Source: Micromonospora sp. MH99 | GTDB taxonomy: Bacteria > Actinomycetota > Actinomycetes > Mycobacteriales > Micromonosporaceae | Reading direction: 5' to 3' | Assembly: GCF_021442385.1 (NCBI RefSeq) | Contig: NZ_MUZA01000005.1 | Span: forward strand, 62,001 to 126,000 | Length of the DNA: 64,000 nucleotides | In this document: one piece after another, positions 3,713-9,391 of the stretch | How the letters are laid out: each line of letters opens with the position of its first letter | Numbering within the stretch: the first letter of the stretch is position 1 | The notes under the pieces: model-generated | Told to the model about the DNA's origin: nothing | The model's input: only the letters and a program-made list of their open reading frames with translations | The model's database searches: none | Made by a program: the position numbers and the translations under genes

Positions 3713-4111
3713 TCAGGTCGGAATGTGGATGATCGGTAGCTCGCCGTCACCGTACCGGTCCTCCCCGGTCAGGATCGAGGCGTCATGGTCGAGTACGGCC
3801 AGCACGGTGGTGGCGAGATCGGCCCGACCCGTCACCGTCCGCCAGTAGCTGAGTTCGTGCCAGGAGTGCCCCTCGGTGGAGAGCACCGCACAGGCGTCCA
3901 GGATCAGCAGCCGGTGCAGGGTCGCCCGTTCCTTCGGGTCACTGACGATCGCCAGGGCCTCCGCCGCGGTCACGGCGGTGACACCGAACCTGTTGCGGTC
4001 CTGGATCACCTCGTGCAGCGGTTCCCCGACATGCACCGACCCCGCCAGATAAGCCAGCAGCGCCGACCGATCCAGCACGAGCCGGACCGGCCGGTCGTCC
4101 GCGGCGCTCAC
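3713..4111 (-). CDS. PIN-domain protein, probable VapC-type toxin ribonuclease
   Basis: A 132-residue protein with the acidic pattern of a PIN nuclease: Asp14 in LVLDRSALLAYL, Glu51 in AAEAL, Asp98 in GRADLA, and an acidic ILTGEDRYG strand near 115-121. PIN toxins of VapBC modules cleave RNA in a Mg2+-dependent way and are neutralised by a cognate antitoxin. The ATG overlaps the stop of the upstream RHH-like gene by four bases (ATGA), the usual antitoxin-toxin coupling. RNA target unknown. It could alternatively be a non-toxin PIN regulator. Confidence 0.75.
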   Translation of the reverse strand: MSAADDRPVRLVLDRSALLAYLAGSVHVGEPLHEVIQDRNRFGVTAVTAAEALAIVSDPKERATLHRLLILDACAVLSTEGHSWHELSYWRTVTGRADLATTVLAVLDHDASILTGEDRYGDGELPIIHIPT

Positions 4112-4416
4112 GCGGCCGGCTGGTCGGCGGTGTCCCGCATGTGTTGGCGTGCCCGCTCGCGCAGCGCATGCCGGCGCTCCGGCGACCAGTCGGCCTCAAC
4201 GGCGGCACGACGGGCACGCGCCTCGGCCACACCCTGCTCGGTGATCTGGATGCCCTGGTGGGCCAGCTCCGCGTCCAGGGCGTCCAGACGCATCCGGTCC
4301 CGGACGGCCTGGGTGATGTACGCGCTGGCGTTGGACTCGTGCTCCAGGCGCTCCGCCACGTCGGGTGGGACGGAGATGGACAGCTTCCGCATCGCGCTGG
4401 TCATACCCGAGACCAT
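4108..4416 (-). CDS. Ribbon-helix-helix antitoxin-like protein (VapB type)
   Basis: A 102-residue protein whose N-terminus (MRKLSISVPPDVAERLEHE) has the beta strand and first helix typical of ribbon-helix-helix DNA-binding antitoxins. A long charged helical tail rich in Glu and Arg probably wraps the toxin. It lies immediately upstream of and overlaps the PIN gene, so the pair is likely one operon repressed by its own antitoxin-toxin complex. The true start may be ATG 4404 or ATG 4392, because the segment MVSGMTSAM is not typical of the fold. Confidence 0.7.
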   Translation of the reverse strand: MVSGMTSAMRKLSISVPPDVAERLEHESNASAYITQAVRDRMRLDALDAELAHQGIQITEQGVAEARARRAAVEADWSPERRHALRERARQHMRDTADQPAA

Positions 4417-4497: not shown

Positions 4498-4545
4498 GCG
4501 CCCGGCCCCGAACGGCGGAACCCGCCGTCGTTCGGGGCCGGGCGC
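4498..4545 (-). terminator. Strong hairpin terminator after the MFS gene
   Basis: A perfect 17-bp inverted repeat (arms 4498-4514 and 4529-4545, 14-nt loop) directly abutting the MFS stop codon. There is no long U tract, which is common for GC-rich actinobacterial terminators. Confidence 0.7.
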
Positions 4546-5751
4546 TCAGGCGACCGCCTCCCGCAGGGGCCGCCAGGCGATGGCGGCGATCGCCGCCATC
4601 GCGACGGCGGCGATCCAGAACGGCGTGGTGATCTCCCAGGCGCTGGCGAACAGGCCGCCGAGGAGCGAGCCCACCGCGGCGCCGCCGAGATCCAGCACTG
4701 CGTACACGCTGCCGACCCGGCCGCGCAGGTGCGCAGGCACGACCCGTTGCCGGACCGAGGTGACGGTGATGCCCCACACCATGGCATGGATGCTGAACAC
4801 GACCAGGACGACGGCGGCGATCCAGGGTGTCATCGTGGTCGCGAGGCACACGTGCGTCACGACCTCGATCACCAGGCCGGCACGCAACAGGGTGGCGCTG
4901 CCGAACGCGCGCGTCAGCCTCGCGGCGACAGCGCTGCCGACCAGACCGCCGACCGCGAACGCGGACAACAGGAAGCCGTAGCCGACGGTGGACACACCCA
5001 GGCGCTCCCGGCAGTAGAGCACGAACACGGCGAACGCGGCACCGAACGCGATGTTGCCCAGTCCCATGCTCACGGCGAGGGTCCGCAGCAGTCGGTGCCG
5101 CCACAACCACCGCACACCGGCGGCGACCTCGGCACGCAGCGAGGCCCGCCGAGGCGGGTCGCCACTGACGGGGACTCGCCGGATGCCCGCGATCAGCGCC
5201 GCGGACGTCGCGAAGGTGAGCGCGTCGACCCCGAACGGCACGGCCGCCGAGACGACGAACAACCACGCGCCCAGCGGCTTCGCGACGAACTGGTTGCCGA
5301 TGGTGAAGCTCGCGTAGAGCCGAGCGTTGGCGCGCGGCAGGTCCACCGGGGCGACGACCGCCGGGAGCAGGGCACCCAACGCGGTGTCCGCGAGGGTCTC
5401 CCCCGTACCCAGAAGGAAGAGCACCGCGTAGACGACGGCCACCGAGACGGTTCCGGTCGCGATGGTCGTCGACAACGCCGCCAGAGCCGCGGCGCGGGCC
5501 AGGTTGACGGCCACGACCAGCCGGCGACGGTCGAGCCGATCGACGTAGGCACCGCTGGCCAGGGCGAACAGCAGCCAGGACAGCTGCTGGGCGAAGACGG
5601 CGCCGGCGATGAGGGCCGGGTCGTCGCTGACGGAGGCGACCAGCAGCGGGCCGGCGGCCATCGTGACGCCGTCGCCGACGTTGGACACCGCCGCAGCGGT
5701 CCACAGTTTGGTGAAGTCCGCGCCGAGACGCGCGGATACAGGGGCACGCAC
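4546..5751 (-). CDS. MFS exporter (MFS_3 / macrolide-efflux-like family)
   Basis: A 401-residue integral membrane protein with about 12 hydrophobic segments and the MFS loop motif between TM2 and TM3 (SGAYVDRLDRRRLV). It resembles the MFS_3 group of macrolide and siderophore exporters, so a small-molecule efflux role by proton antiport is likely but the substrate is unknown. The GTG start at 5751 has GGAG 5 nt upstream. It is preceded by a short translated-looking leader ORF and hairpins (5795-5904) that could regulate expression, and it is followed by a strong hairpin terminator, so it appears to be a self-contained transcription unit inserted between helY and the tat genes. Confidence 0.85.
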   Translation of the reverse strand: MRAPVSARLGADFTKLWTAAAVSNVGDGVTMAAGPLLVASVSDDPALIAGAVFAQQLSWLLFALASGAYVDRLDRRRLVVAVNLARAAALAALSTTIATGTVSVAVVYAVLFLLGTGETLADTALGALLPAVVAPVDLPRANARLYASFTIGNQFVAKPLGAWLFVVSAAVPFGVDALTFATSAALIAGIRRVPVSGDPPRRASLRAEVAAGVRWLWRHRLLRTLAVSMGLGNIAFGAAFAVFVLYCRERLGVSTVGYGFLLSAFAVGGLVGSAVAARLTRAFGSATLLRAGLVIEVVTHVCLATTMTPWIAAVVLVVFSIHAMVWGITVTSVRQRVVPAHLRGRVGSVYAVLDLGGAAVGSLLGGLFASAWEITTPFWIAAVAMAAIAAIAWRPLREAVA

Positions 5752-5794
5752 AAGAACTCCTCGAGCCAGGAAAGGAAACGGTCGTCGTGGGACC

Positions 5795-5840
5795 GCTCCG
5801 CGGCGAGGAGCACCGGACCACCGGAGGTGAACTCCGGCGG
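5795..5840 (-). promoter_or_regulatory. Candidate attenuator hairpins in the MFS leader
   Basis: Two stem-loops in the leader RNA between the leader-peptide stop and the MFS start. The first is a 9-bp stem with one G-U pair (arms 5832-5840 and 5818-5826, 5-nt loop). The second is a weaker 5-bp GC stem (5807-5811 with 5795-5799). A ribosome at the leader stop (5848) would overlap the first stem, so its progress could change RNA folding. No clear U tract is seen, so control could be transcriptional or translational. Confidence 0.45.
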
Positions 5841-5847
5841 CGCACGA

Positions 5848-5904
5848 TCAGTGCCGGGCGTGCCCTCGCGGCGAGGCGGAGACCGTGACCATGGCGAGGC
5901 GCAT
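5848..5904 (-). CDS. Putative 18-residue leader peptide upstream of the MFS exporter
   Basis: A short ORF encoding MRLAMVTVSASPRGHARH, with a strong Shine-Dalgarno GGGAG exactly 5 nt before its ATG. That is better than many annotated genes here and argues that it is translated. It ends 96 nt before the exporter GTG, with hairpins in between. The layout matches ribosome-mediated attenuation known for resistance genes (for example erm leaders and actinobacterial efflux or ABCF genes), where an antibiotic-stalled ribosome turns on the downstream gene. The sequence matches no leader family I know, and the inducer is unknown. Confidence 0.5.
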   Translation of the reverse strand: MRLAMVTVSASPRGHARH

Positions 5905-5940
5905 GTCAGCTCCCAACTGTCGATCAATACCGGTCCGAGC

Positions 5941-5946
5941 AGAATA
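5941..5946 (-). promoter_or_regulatory. Possible -10 box for the leader peptide-MFS transcript
   Basis: TATTCT on the minus strand, 36 nt before the leader-peptide ATG. It would give a short 5' UTR containing the GGGAG ribosome site. No convincing -35 is visible. Confidence 0.4.
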
Positions 5947-6063
5947 GCCGGCCATCGACGTTCTCGTATCCCCCAAGCGCGACCCGCTCGCCACCTGCCG
6001 GGCGACGCGCCTCGCGTTGTTCCGGAGGTGGACACCGCCGCAGATCCCCGCGGGCCGACCGCC

Positions 6064-6069
6064 TAGCGT
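6064..6069 (+). promoter_or_regulatory. -10 element of the EamA gene (leaderless)
   Basis: TAGCGT followed by 7 nt and GTG 6077. Confidence 0.6.
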
Positions 6070-6076
6070 CGTGCTC

Positions 6077-6988
6077 GTGACGGAGACCCTGCTGCCCGAC
6101 CCGCGCCCGACCGACGCGCCCCCACAGCGGCGCGGCGGCGTGCTCGCCGTGGGGCTGGTGCTCGGCGGGGCGCTGTCGGTGCAGTTCGGCTCCGCCCTGG
6201 CCGCGCTGCTCTTTCCGCGTACCGGGGTGGCCGGGGCGGTCACCCTGCGGCTGACGATCTCGGCCGTGCTGCTGCTCATCGTGTGCCGGCCCCGGCTGCG
6301 CGGGCACGACCGCTCGGCCTGGCTCGCGGCCGGCGCGTTCGGGCTGGCCCTGGCCGGCATGAACTCGCTGTTCTACCAGGCCATCGAGCGGATCCCGCTC
6401 GGCCCGACGGTGACCCTGGAGGTGCTCGGCCCCCTCGCTCTGTCGGTGTTCACCGCCCGTCGGCTGGCGAGCTGGTGCTGGGCGGGGCTCGCGCTGGCCG
6501 GGGTGGCGCTGCTCGGGCAGGGCGGCTTCGACCGGCTCAACCCGGCGGGGGTGGCCTTCGCGTTCGGCGCGGGCGCCATGTGGGCGGCGTACATCGTGCT
6601 CAGCGCGCGGGTCGGCGACCGGTTCCCGGGCGCGGACGGGCTGGCCCTCGCGCTGACCCTCGCCGCGCTGGTCACCCTGCCCCTGGGCATCGTCGACGGC
6701 GGCGCCGCCCTGCTCGACCCGCAGGTGCTGGCGCTGGGCACCGCCCTCGCGGTCCTCGCCTCCGGACTGCCGTACACCCTGGAACTGCTGGCGCTGCGCC
6801 GGATGCCCACCGCCACCTTTGCGGTGCTGATGAGCCTCGGCCCGGCCATCGCCACCCTCGCCGGATGGCTGGTGCTGCGGCAGGCGCTGACGCTCCTGGA
6901 ATGCGCCGCCATCGTGCTGGTCATCGCCGCCAGCATCGGCGCGGTACGGGTCAGAGCAGCAGTCGTAGAGCCCCCGGCACAGCGGTGA
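6077..6988 (+). CDS. EamA/DMT-family transporter
   Basis: About 303 residues with roughly ten hydrophobic segments forming two EamA repeats, as in RhaT/YdcZ-like drug/metabolite transporters that export amino acids or other metabolites. Cargo unknown. The second repeat ends in a typical terminal helix before a short hydrophilic tail. GTG 6077 is chosen over an upstream in-frame TTG at 6017 because of the TAGCGT hexamer 7 nt before it. The 3' end overlaps the convergent lipid kinase gene by 38 bp, so the two transcripts are antisense over their last codons. Confidence 0.85.
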   Translation: MTETLLPDPRPTDAPPQRRGGVLAVGLVLGGALSVQFGSALAALLFPRTGVAGAVTLRLTISAVLLLIVCRPRLRGHDRSAWLAAGAFGLALAGMNSLFYQAIERIPLGPTVTLEVLGPLALSVFTARRLASWCWAGLALAGVALLGQGGFDRLNPAGVAFAFGAGAMWAAYIVLSARVGDRFPGADGLALALTLAALVTLPLGIVDGGAALLDPQVLALGTALAVLASGLPYTLELLALRRMPTATFAVLMSLGPAIATLAGWLVLRQALTLLECAAIVLVIAASIGAVRVRAAVVEPPAQR

Positions 6989-7940
6989 TCGTCACCGGCA
7001 GGCGCAGCGAGCGTTCCCCGTCGGCGTACGTGACGATGTCGTCGGCGGCCAACTCCACGGTGCGGGCCCGGTAGCTGCTCACCAGCGGGTGGCTCACGTG
7101 GGTGCCCTGGTAGATGCGCGGCTTGACCCGGATCAGGGTTCGCCGGTCGACGCGACCGGCCACCACCACGTCGAGCAGCCCGTCGGTCGGGTCGGCGTCG
7201 GGACAGATCCGCATCCCCCCGCCGTACGTCGGGCAGTTGCCCACCGCCACCAGCACCGCGTCCAGCTCGTGCGGCACCCCGTCGAGGCGCAGCGTGTAGC
7301 GGCGCGGCCGGAGCCGGGCCAGCTCGACCACGATCGCCAGGTCGTACCGGCGGGGGCCGCGCGGCCAGCGCATCCGGTTGGCGCGCTCGTTGACGATCGC
7401 GTCGAAGCCCGCCGCGAGGACCGCCCCGTACCAACGCTCGGCCCCGTCGACGCCGGCCATCCGGGCCAGGTCGACGACGCGGGCCCGACCGGCGCGCAGC
7501 GCCTCGGCGATCACCGCCACGGCGGCGACGGGATCGGCCGGGAAGCCGGTGTCGAGGGCGAAGTCGTTGCCGGTGCCGGCCGGCACCGGCCCGAACGGCA
7601 CGTCGGTGCCGGCGACGGCCTGCATGGCCCGGTGCACGGTGCCGTCCCCGCCGATAGCGACAAGCGCGTCGACACCGTCGGCGACCGCGGTACGACACGC
7701 CGCCTCCGCCTCGTCCGGGTCGGACGCCGACAGCTTCCGGACCGGCCGGCCGGCGGCGGCCAGCCCGTCCAGCAGCCGGGGCAGCAGCGCCCGGTGCCGT
7801 CCCCGGCCGGCCGTCGGGTTGACGAGCACGGCCACCGGGCCACCCTCATCCCGGGCGCGCTCGACCGGGTCGCCGGCGGAAGGGGTGCGCTCGCCCGGGC
7901 CGTCGGTGGGCGGGCCGGACAGGTGATCGTCTGCGGTCAC
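6951..7940 (-). CDS. Diacylglycerol kinase-family lipid kinase
   Basis: A 329-residue DAGK catalytic-domain protein. The phosphate-binding stretch VLVNPTAGRGR and nucleotide motif GGDGTVHRAM are clear, followed by GPVPAGTGNDFA and the second beta domain with PDADPTDGLLDVVV. Such enzymes phosphorylate diacylglycerol or related lipids with ATP at the membrane (YegS/DgkB/sphingosine-kinase-like). The exact lipid is not predictable. The start is set to GTG 7940, 7 nt after TACGGT, which removes a 12-residue low-quality extension. It converges on, and overlaps by 38 bp, the EamA gene. Confidence 0.88.
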   Translation of the reverse strand: MTADDHLSGPPTDGPGERTPSAGDPVERARDEGGPVAVLVNPTAGRGRHRALLPRLLDGLAAAGRPVRKLSASDPDEAEAACRTAVADGVDALVAIGGDGTVHRAMQAVAGTDVPFGPVPAGTGNDFALDTGFPADPVAAVAVIAEALRAGRARVVDLARMAGVDGAERWYGAVLAAGFDAIVNERANRMRWPRGPRRYDLAIVVELARLRPRRYTLRLDGVPHELDAVLVAVGNCPTYGGGMRICPDADPTDGLLDVVVAGRVDRRTLIRVKPRIYQGTHVSHPLVSSYRARTVELAADDIVTYADGERSLRLPVTITAVPGALRLLL

Positions 7941-7947
7941 GGGCAGC

Positions 7948-7953
7948 ACCGTA
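7948..7953 (-). promoter_or_regulatory. -10 element of the lipid kinase gene (leaderless)
   Basis: TACGGT on the minus strand, 7 nt before GTG 7940. Confidence 0.55.
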
Positions 7954-8051
7954 CCGGTCGGACACCCGCTGTTCACCCGGGGCGGCCGACGTCACGATCA
8001 GTCTCGCCGCCGGCGCGTCGGGTGAGCGCCCTGCGGGGCCGCTGACACGAC

Positions 8052-8107: not shown

Positions 8108-9058
8108 TCAGGTCATGTCGTCGTAGCGGCGTTCGATGGGCGCCGGCTTCGCGATCGGTTCGGGCGCACCGATCGGCGCTGTCGCGTCGACCCGCTGCCC
8201 GGCCACGACCGGGTCCGTGTCGAACTCCAGCGGCGAGACCTCGTCGTCGTCGAGACCGGCGTAGACCTCCTTGCCCCGCCCACGCCGCCGGTCGTTGATG
8301 AACGCCACGCCGACCGCCCCGAAGTAGAGCGCGGAGAGGCAGACCGCCAGGGCGGTCATCCCGAACGGGTCCGGCGTGGGGGTGACCACGGCGGAGAACG
8401 CGAAGAACACGAAGATCGCCACCCGCCACCAGCTGAGCAGCCGCTTCGCGCTGGCGAGGCCCACGAAGTTGAGCATCAGCACGATCAGCGGGAACTCGAA
8501 CGCCACCCCGAACAGCAGGATCAGGTTGGTGACGAACGAGATGTAGCGGGTGACTTCCAGGGTCGTCGAGATGTCATCGCCGGACACGTTCATCAGGAAC
8601 TCGAGGCCCTTGGCGGTGACGAAGAACGCCAGCACCGCACCGGCGGCGAAGAGCGGTGCCGCCAGGGCCGTGAACGCGTACGCGTAGCGCCGCTCGTGCC
8701 GGTGCAGACCGGGCGCGATGAACGCCCAGAGCTGGTAGAGCCAGATCGGCGCCGCGATGATCAGGCCCACCCAGAGGCCGATCTTCAGGTTCAGCAGGAA
8801 GAGGTCCGCCGGGCCGAGCTGGACGAACAGGCACTTGCCGGACGCGTCCTTCGACCCCGGCAGGTCGCAGTACGGCTGCGACAGCAGGTGCCGCACCGGC
8901 TCGGCCAGCCAGATGCCGAAACCGAAGCCGACAAGGATCGCCAGCGAGGCGCGGAACAGACGGTTGCGCAGCTCACGGACGTGCTCGATGAGCGTCATCG
9001 AGCCGTCGGCGGCCCGTTCGAAGGTGCTCGGGCCGCGCTTACGCAGGGCGAAGGCCAC
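8108..9058 (-). CDS. tatC: Twin-arginine translocase subunit TatC
   Basis: A 316-residue polytopic membrane protein with six hydrophobic helices. The N-terminal MTLIEHVRELRNRL is the signature that recognises twin-arginine signal peptides, and the conserved Glu and Pro of the first periplasmic loop are in place. With TatA it moves folded proteins across the membrane. The C-terminus carries an extra charged tail of about 60 residues after the last helix, common in actinobacteria. It starts 18 nt after tatA with a weak ribosome site and is co-transcribed with it. Confidence 0.96.
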   Translation of the reverse strand: MAFALRKRGPSTFERAADGSMTLIEHVRELRNRLFRASLAILVGFGFGIWLAEPVRHLLSQPYCDLPGSKDASGKCLFVQLGPADLFLLNLKIGLWVGLIIAAPIWLYQLWAFIAPGLHRHERRYAYAFTALAAPLFAAGAVLAFFVTAKGLEFLMNVSGDDISTTLEVTRYISFVTNLILLFGVAFEFPLIVLMLNFVGLASAKRLLSWWRVAIFVFFAFSAVVTPTPDPFGMTALAVCLSALYFGAVGVAFINDRRRGRGKEVYAGLDDDEVSPLEFDTDPVVAGQRVDATAPIGAPEPIAKPAPIERRYDDMT

Positions 9059-9076
9059 TGTGGTGGGGCCCTTCGG

Positions 9077-9391
9077 TCAGTTGTCGCGGACGCGGTGCAC
9101 CGGGTCGACGACCGGCTGCTGCGGCGGCGCCTGCTGGTACGGCGCCTGCTGCGGCTGCCCGGCGTACGGCGCCTGCTGGCCGGCGTGCGGCGGCAGCGGC
9201 TGGTAGCCGGCCTGCGCGTCGGCCTTCTCGGCCAGGTCGCGGTCGTCGTCCTGCAGGCTCTTGGTCTCGGCCTTGATGATCCGCAGCGAGCGACCCAGCG
9301 AGCGGGCCGCGTCGGGAAGCCGCTTCGCACCGAAGAGCAGGATCAGCACAACCACGAGAACTGCGATGTGCCACGGCTTGAGGGCACCCAT
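9077..9391 (-). CDS. tatA: Sec-independent translocase subunit TatA
   Basis: A 104-residue protein with one N-terminal transmembrane helix ([32 protein letters not shown]), the FGAKRLPD hinge and an amphipathic helix, then a Gln/Pro/Tyr-rich tail of QAPYAGQ-like repeats. It oligomerises to form the Tat pore. ATG 9391 has GGAG 6 nt upstream. One of the two secreted proteins near 44-47 kb carries an SRRWSR-type signal and may be a client. Confidence 0.95.

Follow-up and report, generated by a model that had tools for sequence, protein, structure and literature searches.

The stretch of DNA analysed here (the window, 64,000 nucleotides in full) contains a gene for an MFS exporter that is preceded by a short open reading frame (ORF) with its own Shine-Dalgarno (SD) site and by two hairpins, and this arrangement raises the question of whether the leader controls the exporter and, if it does, at which level of expression and in response to which signal.

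The leader region and its exporter

The 18-codon leader, its GGGAG site at 5-nt spacing and the 96 nt that separate the leader stop from the exporter GTG (position 5751) are as the initial annotation had described them (Table 1), and the exporter indeed has an SD of its own, GAGGAG at 5762-5757, before that GTG; a short ORF with its own SD is thus found 5' of the exporter gene. The 5-bp hairpin, read from the sequence as GCTCC/GGAGC (5811-5807 with 5799-5795), is present too. The hairpin 3' of the leader that had been given as 9 bp exists at 5841-5817, where it folds as 10 bp, and the "17-bp terminator hairpin" behind the exporter is found at 4545-4498, but with 14+7 pairs and without a T run. 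A purine-rich SD-like site (loose pattern) lies ahead of the leader in 42 of 42 relatives, the leader ATG is invariant in the 42 aligned rows (which were selected for having a leader), and the exporter SD GAGGAG (5762-5757) is invariant in all 42 rows. A loose TANNNT-like pattern, counted without a chance control, occurs 25-60 nt 5' of the leader ATG in 30 of the 42 relatives, and a sigma-70 consensus scan found no promoter. Folding energy is ordinary for the 206-nt leader region (z -1.25, 24/200 shuffles equally good), and the part 3' of the leader folds somewhat stably (z -2.31, 4/200 shuffles equally good). It is conservation, not folding stability, that shows the leader element to be more than chance.

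Table 1. Features of the leader region and the exporter in the window, with coordinates, strand and basis
Feature	Position	Strand	Basis or remark
Candidate -10 box of leader promoter, TATTCT	5941..5946	-	TANNNT-like pattern
Leader Shine-Dalgarno site GGGAG	5910..5914	-	sequence; 5-nt spacing to ATG
Leader ORF MRLAMVTVSASPRGHARH plus stop	5848..5904	-	18 codons; ATG at 5904, stop at 5850-5848
P0a 5' strand CCTCG, leader codons 2-4	5895..5899	-	able to pair with exporter SD; 88.6% of cells paired
P0b 5' strand ACGGTC, leader codons 7-8	5881..5886	-	96.0% of cells paired
P1a 5' strand, leader codons 9-12	5871..5880	-	partner is inner stem 5' arm; 89.9% of cells paired
P1b 5' strand GCGAGGGCAC, leader codons 12-15	5860..5869	-	partner is anti-SD segment; 88.9% of cells paired
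Spacer stem-loop, leader to anti-SD, 10 bp	5817..5841	-	folding; conserved in part of the relatives
Segment 2 (anti-SD) GTGCTCCTCGC	5803..5813	-	common to ON and OFF folds
Inner stem 5' arm GAGCGGTC	5791..5798	-	inner stem helix 97.0% of cells paired
Inner stem 3' arm GACCGTTT	5776..5783	-	first six bases double as P0b 3' strand
Segment 4 (exporter SD) CGAGGAGT	5756..5763	-	OFF helix 3' strand; 96.7% of cells paired
MFS exporter, 401 aa, GTG start	4546..5751	-	Pfam MFS_3, 112.8 bits
GC-rich hairpin 3' of exporter, possible terminator without T run	4498..4545	-	14+7 pairs, z -5.6

The exporter matches TIGR00900 at 166.5 bits (cut-off 319.6) and, in sequence, distantly resembles Tap (58.8 bits, cut-off 625), Mef(A) (36.4 bits, cut-off 675) and Tet(V) (27.1 bits, cut-off 640) of NCBIfam, far under the cut-offs of all three. 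Its family makes drug transport probable, and a sequence search at E up to 0.001 found no solved structural relative. Two overlapping small genes lie 3' of the exporter (3713-4416, minus strand). One product, of 102 aa, matches no family and the other is PIN-domain-like (21 bits, under the Pfam cut-off), an arrangement that resembles that of a VapBC toxin-antitoxin pair. The neighbourhood also includes a divergent gene for an EamA transporter (6017-6988, plus strand), which at 195.5 bits (cut-off 354) comes closest to the RhtA-type exporters of threonine/homoserine, as well as a diacylglycerol/lipid kinase gene, tatC and tatA (6951-7976 and 8108-9391, minus strand).

Distribution of the leader element

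We compared the upstream regions of the best 30 exporter loci from 151 related genomes together with those from genomes of named species. Removal of 11 duplicates of the window or of another locus (L001, L009, L012, L013, L015-L018, L022-L024) and of seven paralogues of the own genome (L002-L008) left 61 distinct exporter loci, of which 42 carry the same leader element (type 1), one carries a divergent version (L067, from a Pseudonocardiaceae MAG), 11 carry a second type (type 2) and seven are without a leader (L031, L068, L070-L072, L075, L078). The leader element is thus found at homologous upstream regions, and its conservation at 42 of 61 loci supports the proposal of the initial annotation that a leader controls attenuation ahead of the MFS exporter. 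Named type-1 loci come from Micromonospora, Salinispora, Couchioplanes, Actinoplanes, Planosporangium, Nonomuraea, Acrocarpospora, Actinomadura and Actinoallomurus, among others, and the usual leader peptide is close to MRLxxVTVxASPREHTAR. The alignment used below (A1) has 42 rows; outside it stand the duplicates, the paralogues, the loci without a leader, the 11 type-2 loci, L067, the later finds L088, L090 and L109 and the other class-level loci. The automatic leader pattern missed L014 and L067, which were both recognised on inspection (L067 by eye).

Type-2 loci, with leader peptides such as MGMALLGTVLVSASPLGTTVS and MGMALLGTVLVSAS, show the same pairing scheme in other letters, and their leader duplex reaches -30.2 compared to -20.2 for shuffled letters (11 loci). 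Five of them (L026, L027, L033, L034 and L035) have, 3' of an SD-like GAGGGAG, a second small uORF whose stop overlaps a downstream ATG as ATGA; this overlap suggests translational coupling to the exporter. An exporter tree of 67 rows, made by a quick method, places type 2 on one side of a branch (SH-aLRT 100), and three changes suffice for all leader labels, the type-1 label of L067 and L109 having been given by eye. From these sequences an old origin of the leader element with later losses is plausible. The tree omits the duplicates and L003-L008, as well as four loci that are partial or distant (L073, L074, L075, L078); it also omits six (L116, L118, L119, L121-L123) of the 13 class-level loci that lack the element (see below) and, because of a length filter, L088 and L090.

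Exporter orthologues with at least 71% identity occur in 18 of the 151 related genomes, and the exporter gene is therefore accessory. One genome (G090) has three exporter copies (C1 2903100, C2 4845756 and C2 4849380), two with equal score and 81% identity and one with 76%. A class-wide exporter search of 296 genomes gave hits in 17 (E up to 1e-85), and among the 15 new loci, judged by eye, L109 is type 1, L111 is type 2 and 13 are without the element.

Searching the own genome with an RNA model returned the leader locus at E 5.6e-45 and the next best match at E 0.05; three of the ten weak matches were inspected (L080, L082, L083), and none of these resembles the leader element. Across 200 genomes of the order the model gave 23 matches at E up to 0.01, five of them strong, and all five (own included) sit ahead of this exporter or its remnant. 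Inspection of four of the 18 weak matches showed L091, L093 and L094 to be chance-like and L095 to be a type-2 element; another weak match, L097, lies directly 5' of a type-2 exporter by coordinates. Two loci of the same genus retain the RNA element next to a broken exporter, the exporter match covering residues 2-46 only in L089 (G026) and residues 1-127 and 319-399 in L088 (G057). Rfam (4227 families) gave no match in the whole window at the gathering threshold and, at 5700-6000 with E up to 5, a single hit, weak (E 3.7) and on the opposite strand, in line with the earlier remark that the peptide resembles no recognised leader family; among the open-licence PMC papers listed by the literature searches, whose lists were capped, no title or abstract opening describes the leader element.

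Two exclusive RNA folds

Sequence comparison shows that the leader RNA can adopt two mutually exclusive folds, both of which need segment 2. In the OFF fold this segment acts as an anti-SD by pairing with the exporter SD, with the inner stem enclosed between the two (96.9% of cells paired). The ON fold joins leader codons 7-15 to segment 2 and to both arms of the inner stem (the 3' arm in part), and codons 2-4 are additionally able to pair with the exporter SD. The ON fold comprises 31 pairs with 90.6% of cells paired over the 42 rows, while slid versions of it reach 35-50%. Two-sided changes occur at 12 of its pairs compared to 6.1 in shuffled alignments, with 29 such cells compared to 10.2, and 0/500 shuffles score as high on any of five measures, statistics for which the structure was drawn from the same rows and in which shuffles and swaps leave relatedness in. 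Such changes fall on 5 of 10 pairs in P1a (8 of 10 pairs form in the window's copy) and on 5 of 10 pairs in P1b.

Pairing of each leader with its own downstream partner averages -38.1 kcal/mol compared to -35.2 kcal/mol when partners are swapped between rows, and 0/2000 permutations are as low. For the leader/anti-SD helix alone, 4/2000 permutations reach the own value in 19 diverse rows and 6/2000 in all 42. The OFF helix gave no covariation signal in the swap test (895/2000 in the 19 diverse rows, 444/2000 in all 42); it is nearly invariant, and its support is complementarity, not covariation. Comparison and modelling (see below) both yield two exclusive folds, one of which hides the SD. We rejected the two hairpins named in the initial annotation as the switch, as the spacer hairpin is absent or weak in 8 of 42 rows and the 5-bp hairpin is fully paired in only 17 of 42.

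Modelled effect of ribosome position

We modelled the RNA by equilibrium folding in which the ribosome's leading edge set the 5' boundary and the sequence beyond it could fold, a model that leaves aside transcription kinetics and the ribosome as a body. With no part of the leader covered, ON pairing exceeded 0.5 in 39 of 42 rows; it did so in 35 of 42 with the boundary at nt 18, in 26 at nt 21-24, in 18 at nt 27 and in 3 at nt 30; the range of arrest positions that give ON pairing is, in this model, narrow. OFF pairing exceeded 0.5 in 39-40 of 42 rows with the boundary at nt 39 or further. If a ribosome covers about 15 nt past the first P-site base, a ribosome on codons 1-4 would place the boundary at nt 16-25. 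Even when nothing covers the leader, the exporter SD has a probability of only about one in four of being unpaired (0.25 with the boundary at nt -22, 0.17 with it at nt 0). Opening it costs on average (42 rows) 6.9-7.6 kcal/mol without a ribosome; the figure drops to 4.9-5.7 for boundaries at nt 9-18, is 6.5 for nt 27 and climbs to 9.4-10.4 kcal/mol for nt 42 and further, with the minimum when the ribosome is at the first codons and the maximum after its passage; in 32 of 42 rows the minimum lies between nt 3 and 24.

The window's own copy has an ON pairing of 0.10 when its leader is uncovered. Boundaries at nt 6 and nt 12 give 0.57 and 0.43, and from nt 18 onward, where a real ribosome would sit, the value does not exceed 0.01. 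Opening its SD costs 6.5 kcal/mol with the boundary at nt 0 and 6.6 with it at nt 15, then 7.2 (nt 18) and 8.1-8.5 (nt 21-27), and further along 7.9 (nt 42) and 9.5 (nt 48-57). The modelled choice of fold by ribosome position is thus clear over the 42 rows and weak in the window's copy, and therefore the proposed mechanism rests on the family, not on a single copy.

Codon choice versus peptide

Judged from the alignment, the constraint on the leader sits in codon choice rather than in the peptide. In a codon table of 41 rows (L059 is outside because of a three-base insertion), codon 3 is CTC in all 29 rows that have Leu there, whereas five neighbouring genes use CTG over CTC (184:75). Arg13 is CGA in 37/41 rows, Ala10 is GCT in 31/41 and Thr7 is ACG in 34/41, and the retained leader codons run against usage in the same five genes. 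The leader duplex is stronger with its own codons (-38.1) than in synonymous leaders (mean -30.3), with only 13 of 42 rows beating all 200 recodings and with 9/200 recodings of the window's leader equally strong. The SD opening cost at boundary nt 18 behaves similarly, with 5.7 for own codons compared to 8.9 for random synonymous codons encoding the same peptide; own codons are below the mean of their own 12 recodings in 40 of 42 rows, and the window's copy has 7.2 compared to 9.4 when recoded.

Variation in codons 2-8 is 0.105, 0.211 and 0.102 at codon positions 1, 2 and 3, respectively: positions 1 and 3 vary about equally and less than position 2, a pattern unlike selection on the peptide. 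L052 has a stop after codon 11, yet the paired sequence beyond this stop is kept. The stalling leader peptide suggested by the initial annotation is not supported, in view of this pattern of variation, of the unusual codons kept for pairing and of the stop in L052. We also considered a peptide-level signature, xAS-P-R, as the main signal and rejected it, as those codons lie in the paired strand and unusual codons are retained there.

Discussion

We favour, with reasonable though incomplete confidence, the reading that the element is a cis-acting, ribosome-controlled attenuator that senses arrest at initiation or in early elongation, probably via the exporter SD. When the leader is freely translated, ribosomes would cover and then leave its second half, the OFF hairpin would prevail and the exporter would stay silent. 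A ribosome held within roughly the first three to four codons would keep codons 7-15 available for the ON fold and would also cover codons 2-4, keeping them off the exporter SD, such that the SD would be most open and the exporter would be made; a leader without a ribosome would give an in-between state. Ribosomes that stop or slow at initiation or in early elongation would provide the signal, not a peptide that stalls them through its sequence, and the inhibitor of translation would be what the exporter removes. Control would most likely act on translation, through the exporter SD, perhaps with some contribution of premature termination. We offer only tentatively, as a possibility that may well go too far, the more specific proposal of a three-state translational switch in which leader codons 2-4 and 7-15 are complementary to their own expression platform, the codon choice and not the peptide carries information, and the element is a general sensor of initiation or early-elongation failure, not of one drug.

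A transcriptional version would make the OFF hairpin and the T-rich stretch over the start codon an intrinsic terminator, with the leader fold as antiterminator, as for whiB7 and lmrC. The eight bases 3' of the OFF helix contain a mean of 4.7 T, TTG is at the start position in 40 of 42 tails, and the nearest actinobacterial precedents are transcriptional in the excerpts of the papers drawn on here (whiB7, PMC10727445; lmrC, PMC8546547). However, although the stem is strong, its T run is short and in many rows interrupted, the start position in the window is GTG, the exporter SD itself lies inside the stem of the OFF hairpin and a terminator scan found no terminator-like site within the leader region, and we regard this version as somewhat improbable. 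Nascent-peptide stalling of the ErmC/Mef(E) kind, in which a drug-bound ribosome would stall on MRLxxVTV and the RNA fold would merely read this out, draws on the recurrence of MRL and TV in many leaders, on the leader Mef(E)L, which is MTASMRLR as given in an excerpt of PMC4335068, and on Mef(A) being a distant relative of the exporter (36.4 bits). It seems unlikely in view of codon 4, which is never Arg in the 41 rows, unlike in MRLR, of type-2 leaders that differ (e.g. MGMALLGTVLVSAS) and of third bases in codons 2-8 that are no more variable than first bases.

Strong constraint at the RNA level and weak constraint on the peptide would also be expected of a structured RNA or operator that is bound by a protein or small molecule, the small ORF being incidental. 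An ATG with an SD-like site in 42 of 42 aligned rows and a conserved pairing that begins within the ORF argue against this, as does Rfam, with none at gathering level and a single weak match (E 3.7) on the other strand, and we consider it very improbable. A chance small ORF with hairpins in GC-rich DNA would agree with the ordinary folding energy of the whole region; conservation over several actinobacterial families with two-sided base changes has already refuted this reading, the probability of which is practically negligible.

The element would represent a new attenuator family of an already known kind, in which the SD belongs to the switch and most of the leader ORF's constraint acts on the RNA, along much of its length. 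If the attenuator reading is true, actinobacterial attenuators would gain a type in which the leader ORF is constrained as RNA and the SD is part of the switch. From the RNA one could then predict the class of inducer, namely drugs by which ribosomes are stopped on or close to the start codon. This would open a route to the substrate of the exporter and supply a reporter for drugs of that class, which the phylum is known to produce.

Comparison with known systems

In ermC the stalled ribosome covers the first segment and thereby frees the SD, whereas here the first segment would have to stay uncovered. The ermC translational attenuator is alike in that the SD of a resistance gene is hidden until the ribosome on the leader brings about another pairing that frees it, as described in an excerpt of PMC4191407. 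In mef(E)/mel of Streptococcus pneumoniae (PMC4335068, excerpt) a short leader likewise lies 5' of an MFS exporter, one that handles macrolides and belongs to the same broad superfamily, but the peptide MTASMRLR is required and a terminator is involved; the leader core in common is MRL only, and an MRLR-type stalling motif (Mef(E)/ErmD type) was not found in the leader, codon 4 never being Arg in 41 rows. The bmrB-bmrCD attenuator of Bacillus subtilis likewise has alternative folds inside a leader ORF and, as would be expected here, controls an exporter (a multidrug one) in answer to ribosome-targeting drugs, but according to the same excerpt of PMC4191407 its terminator lies inside a 53-aa leader, its transporter is of the ABC type and blocking leader translation lowered expression.

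For the lmrC uORF2 attenuator of Streptomyces lincolnensis, as excerpted from PMC8546547, the OFF state needs translation of the uORF and disruption of the uORF2 start leads to strong constitutive expression; a weaker shift in the same direction is predicted here on loss of the start codon. It differs from the window's element in its transcriptional terminator, its ABCF gene and a uORF that partly overlaps the terminator. The whiB7/wblC uORF attenuator, in the part of PMC10727445 drawn on here, has a uORF that pairs with part of the attenuator, halted ribosomes that favour the freeing fold and a role in the response to translation stress; it serves a regulator gene and has a rho-independent terminator, whereas here a transporter gene follows and the SD lies inside the attenuator stem, the two being compared by logic, not by sequence. 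The logic of the leader element is nearest to that of the whiB7 attenuator, lmrC and bmrB.
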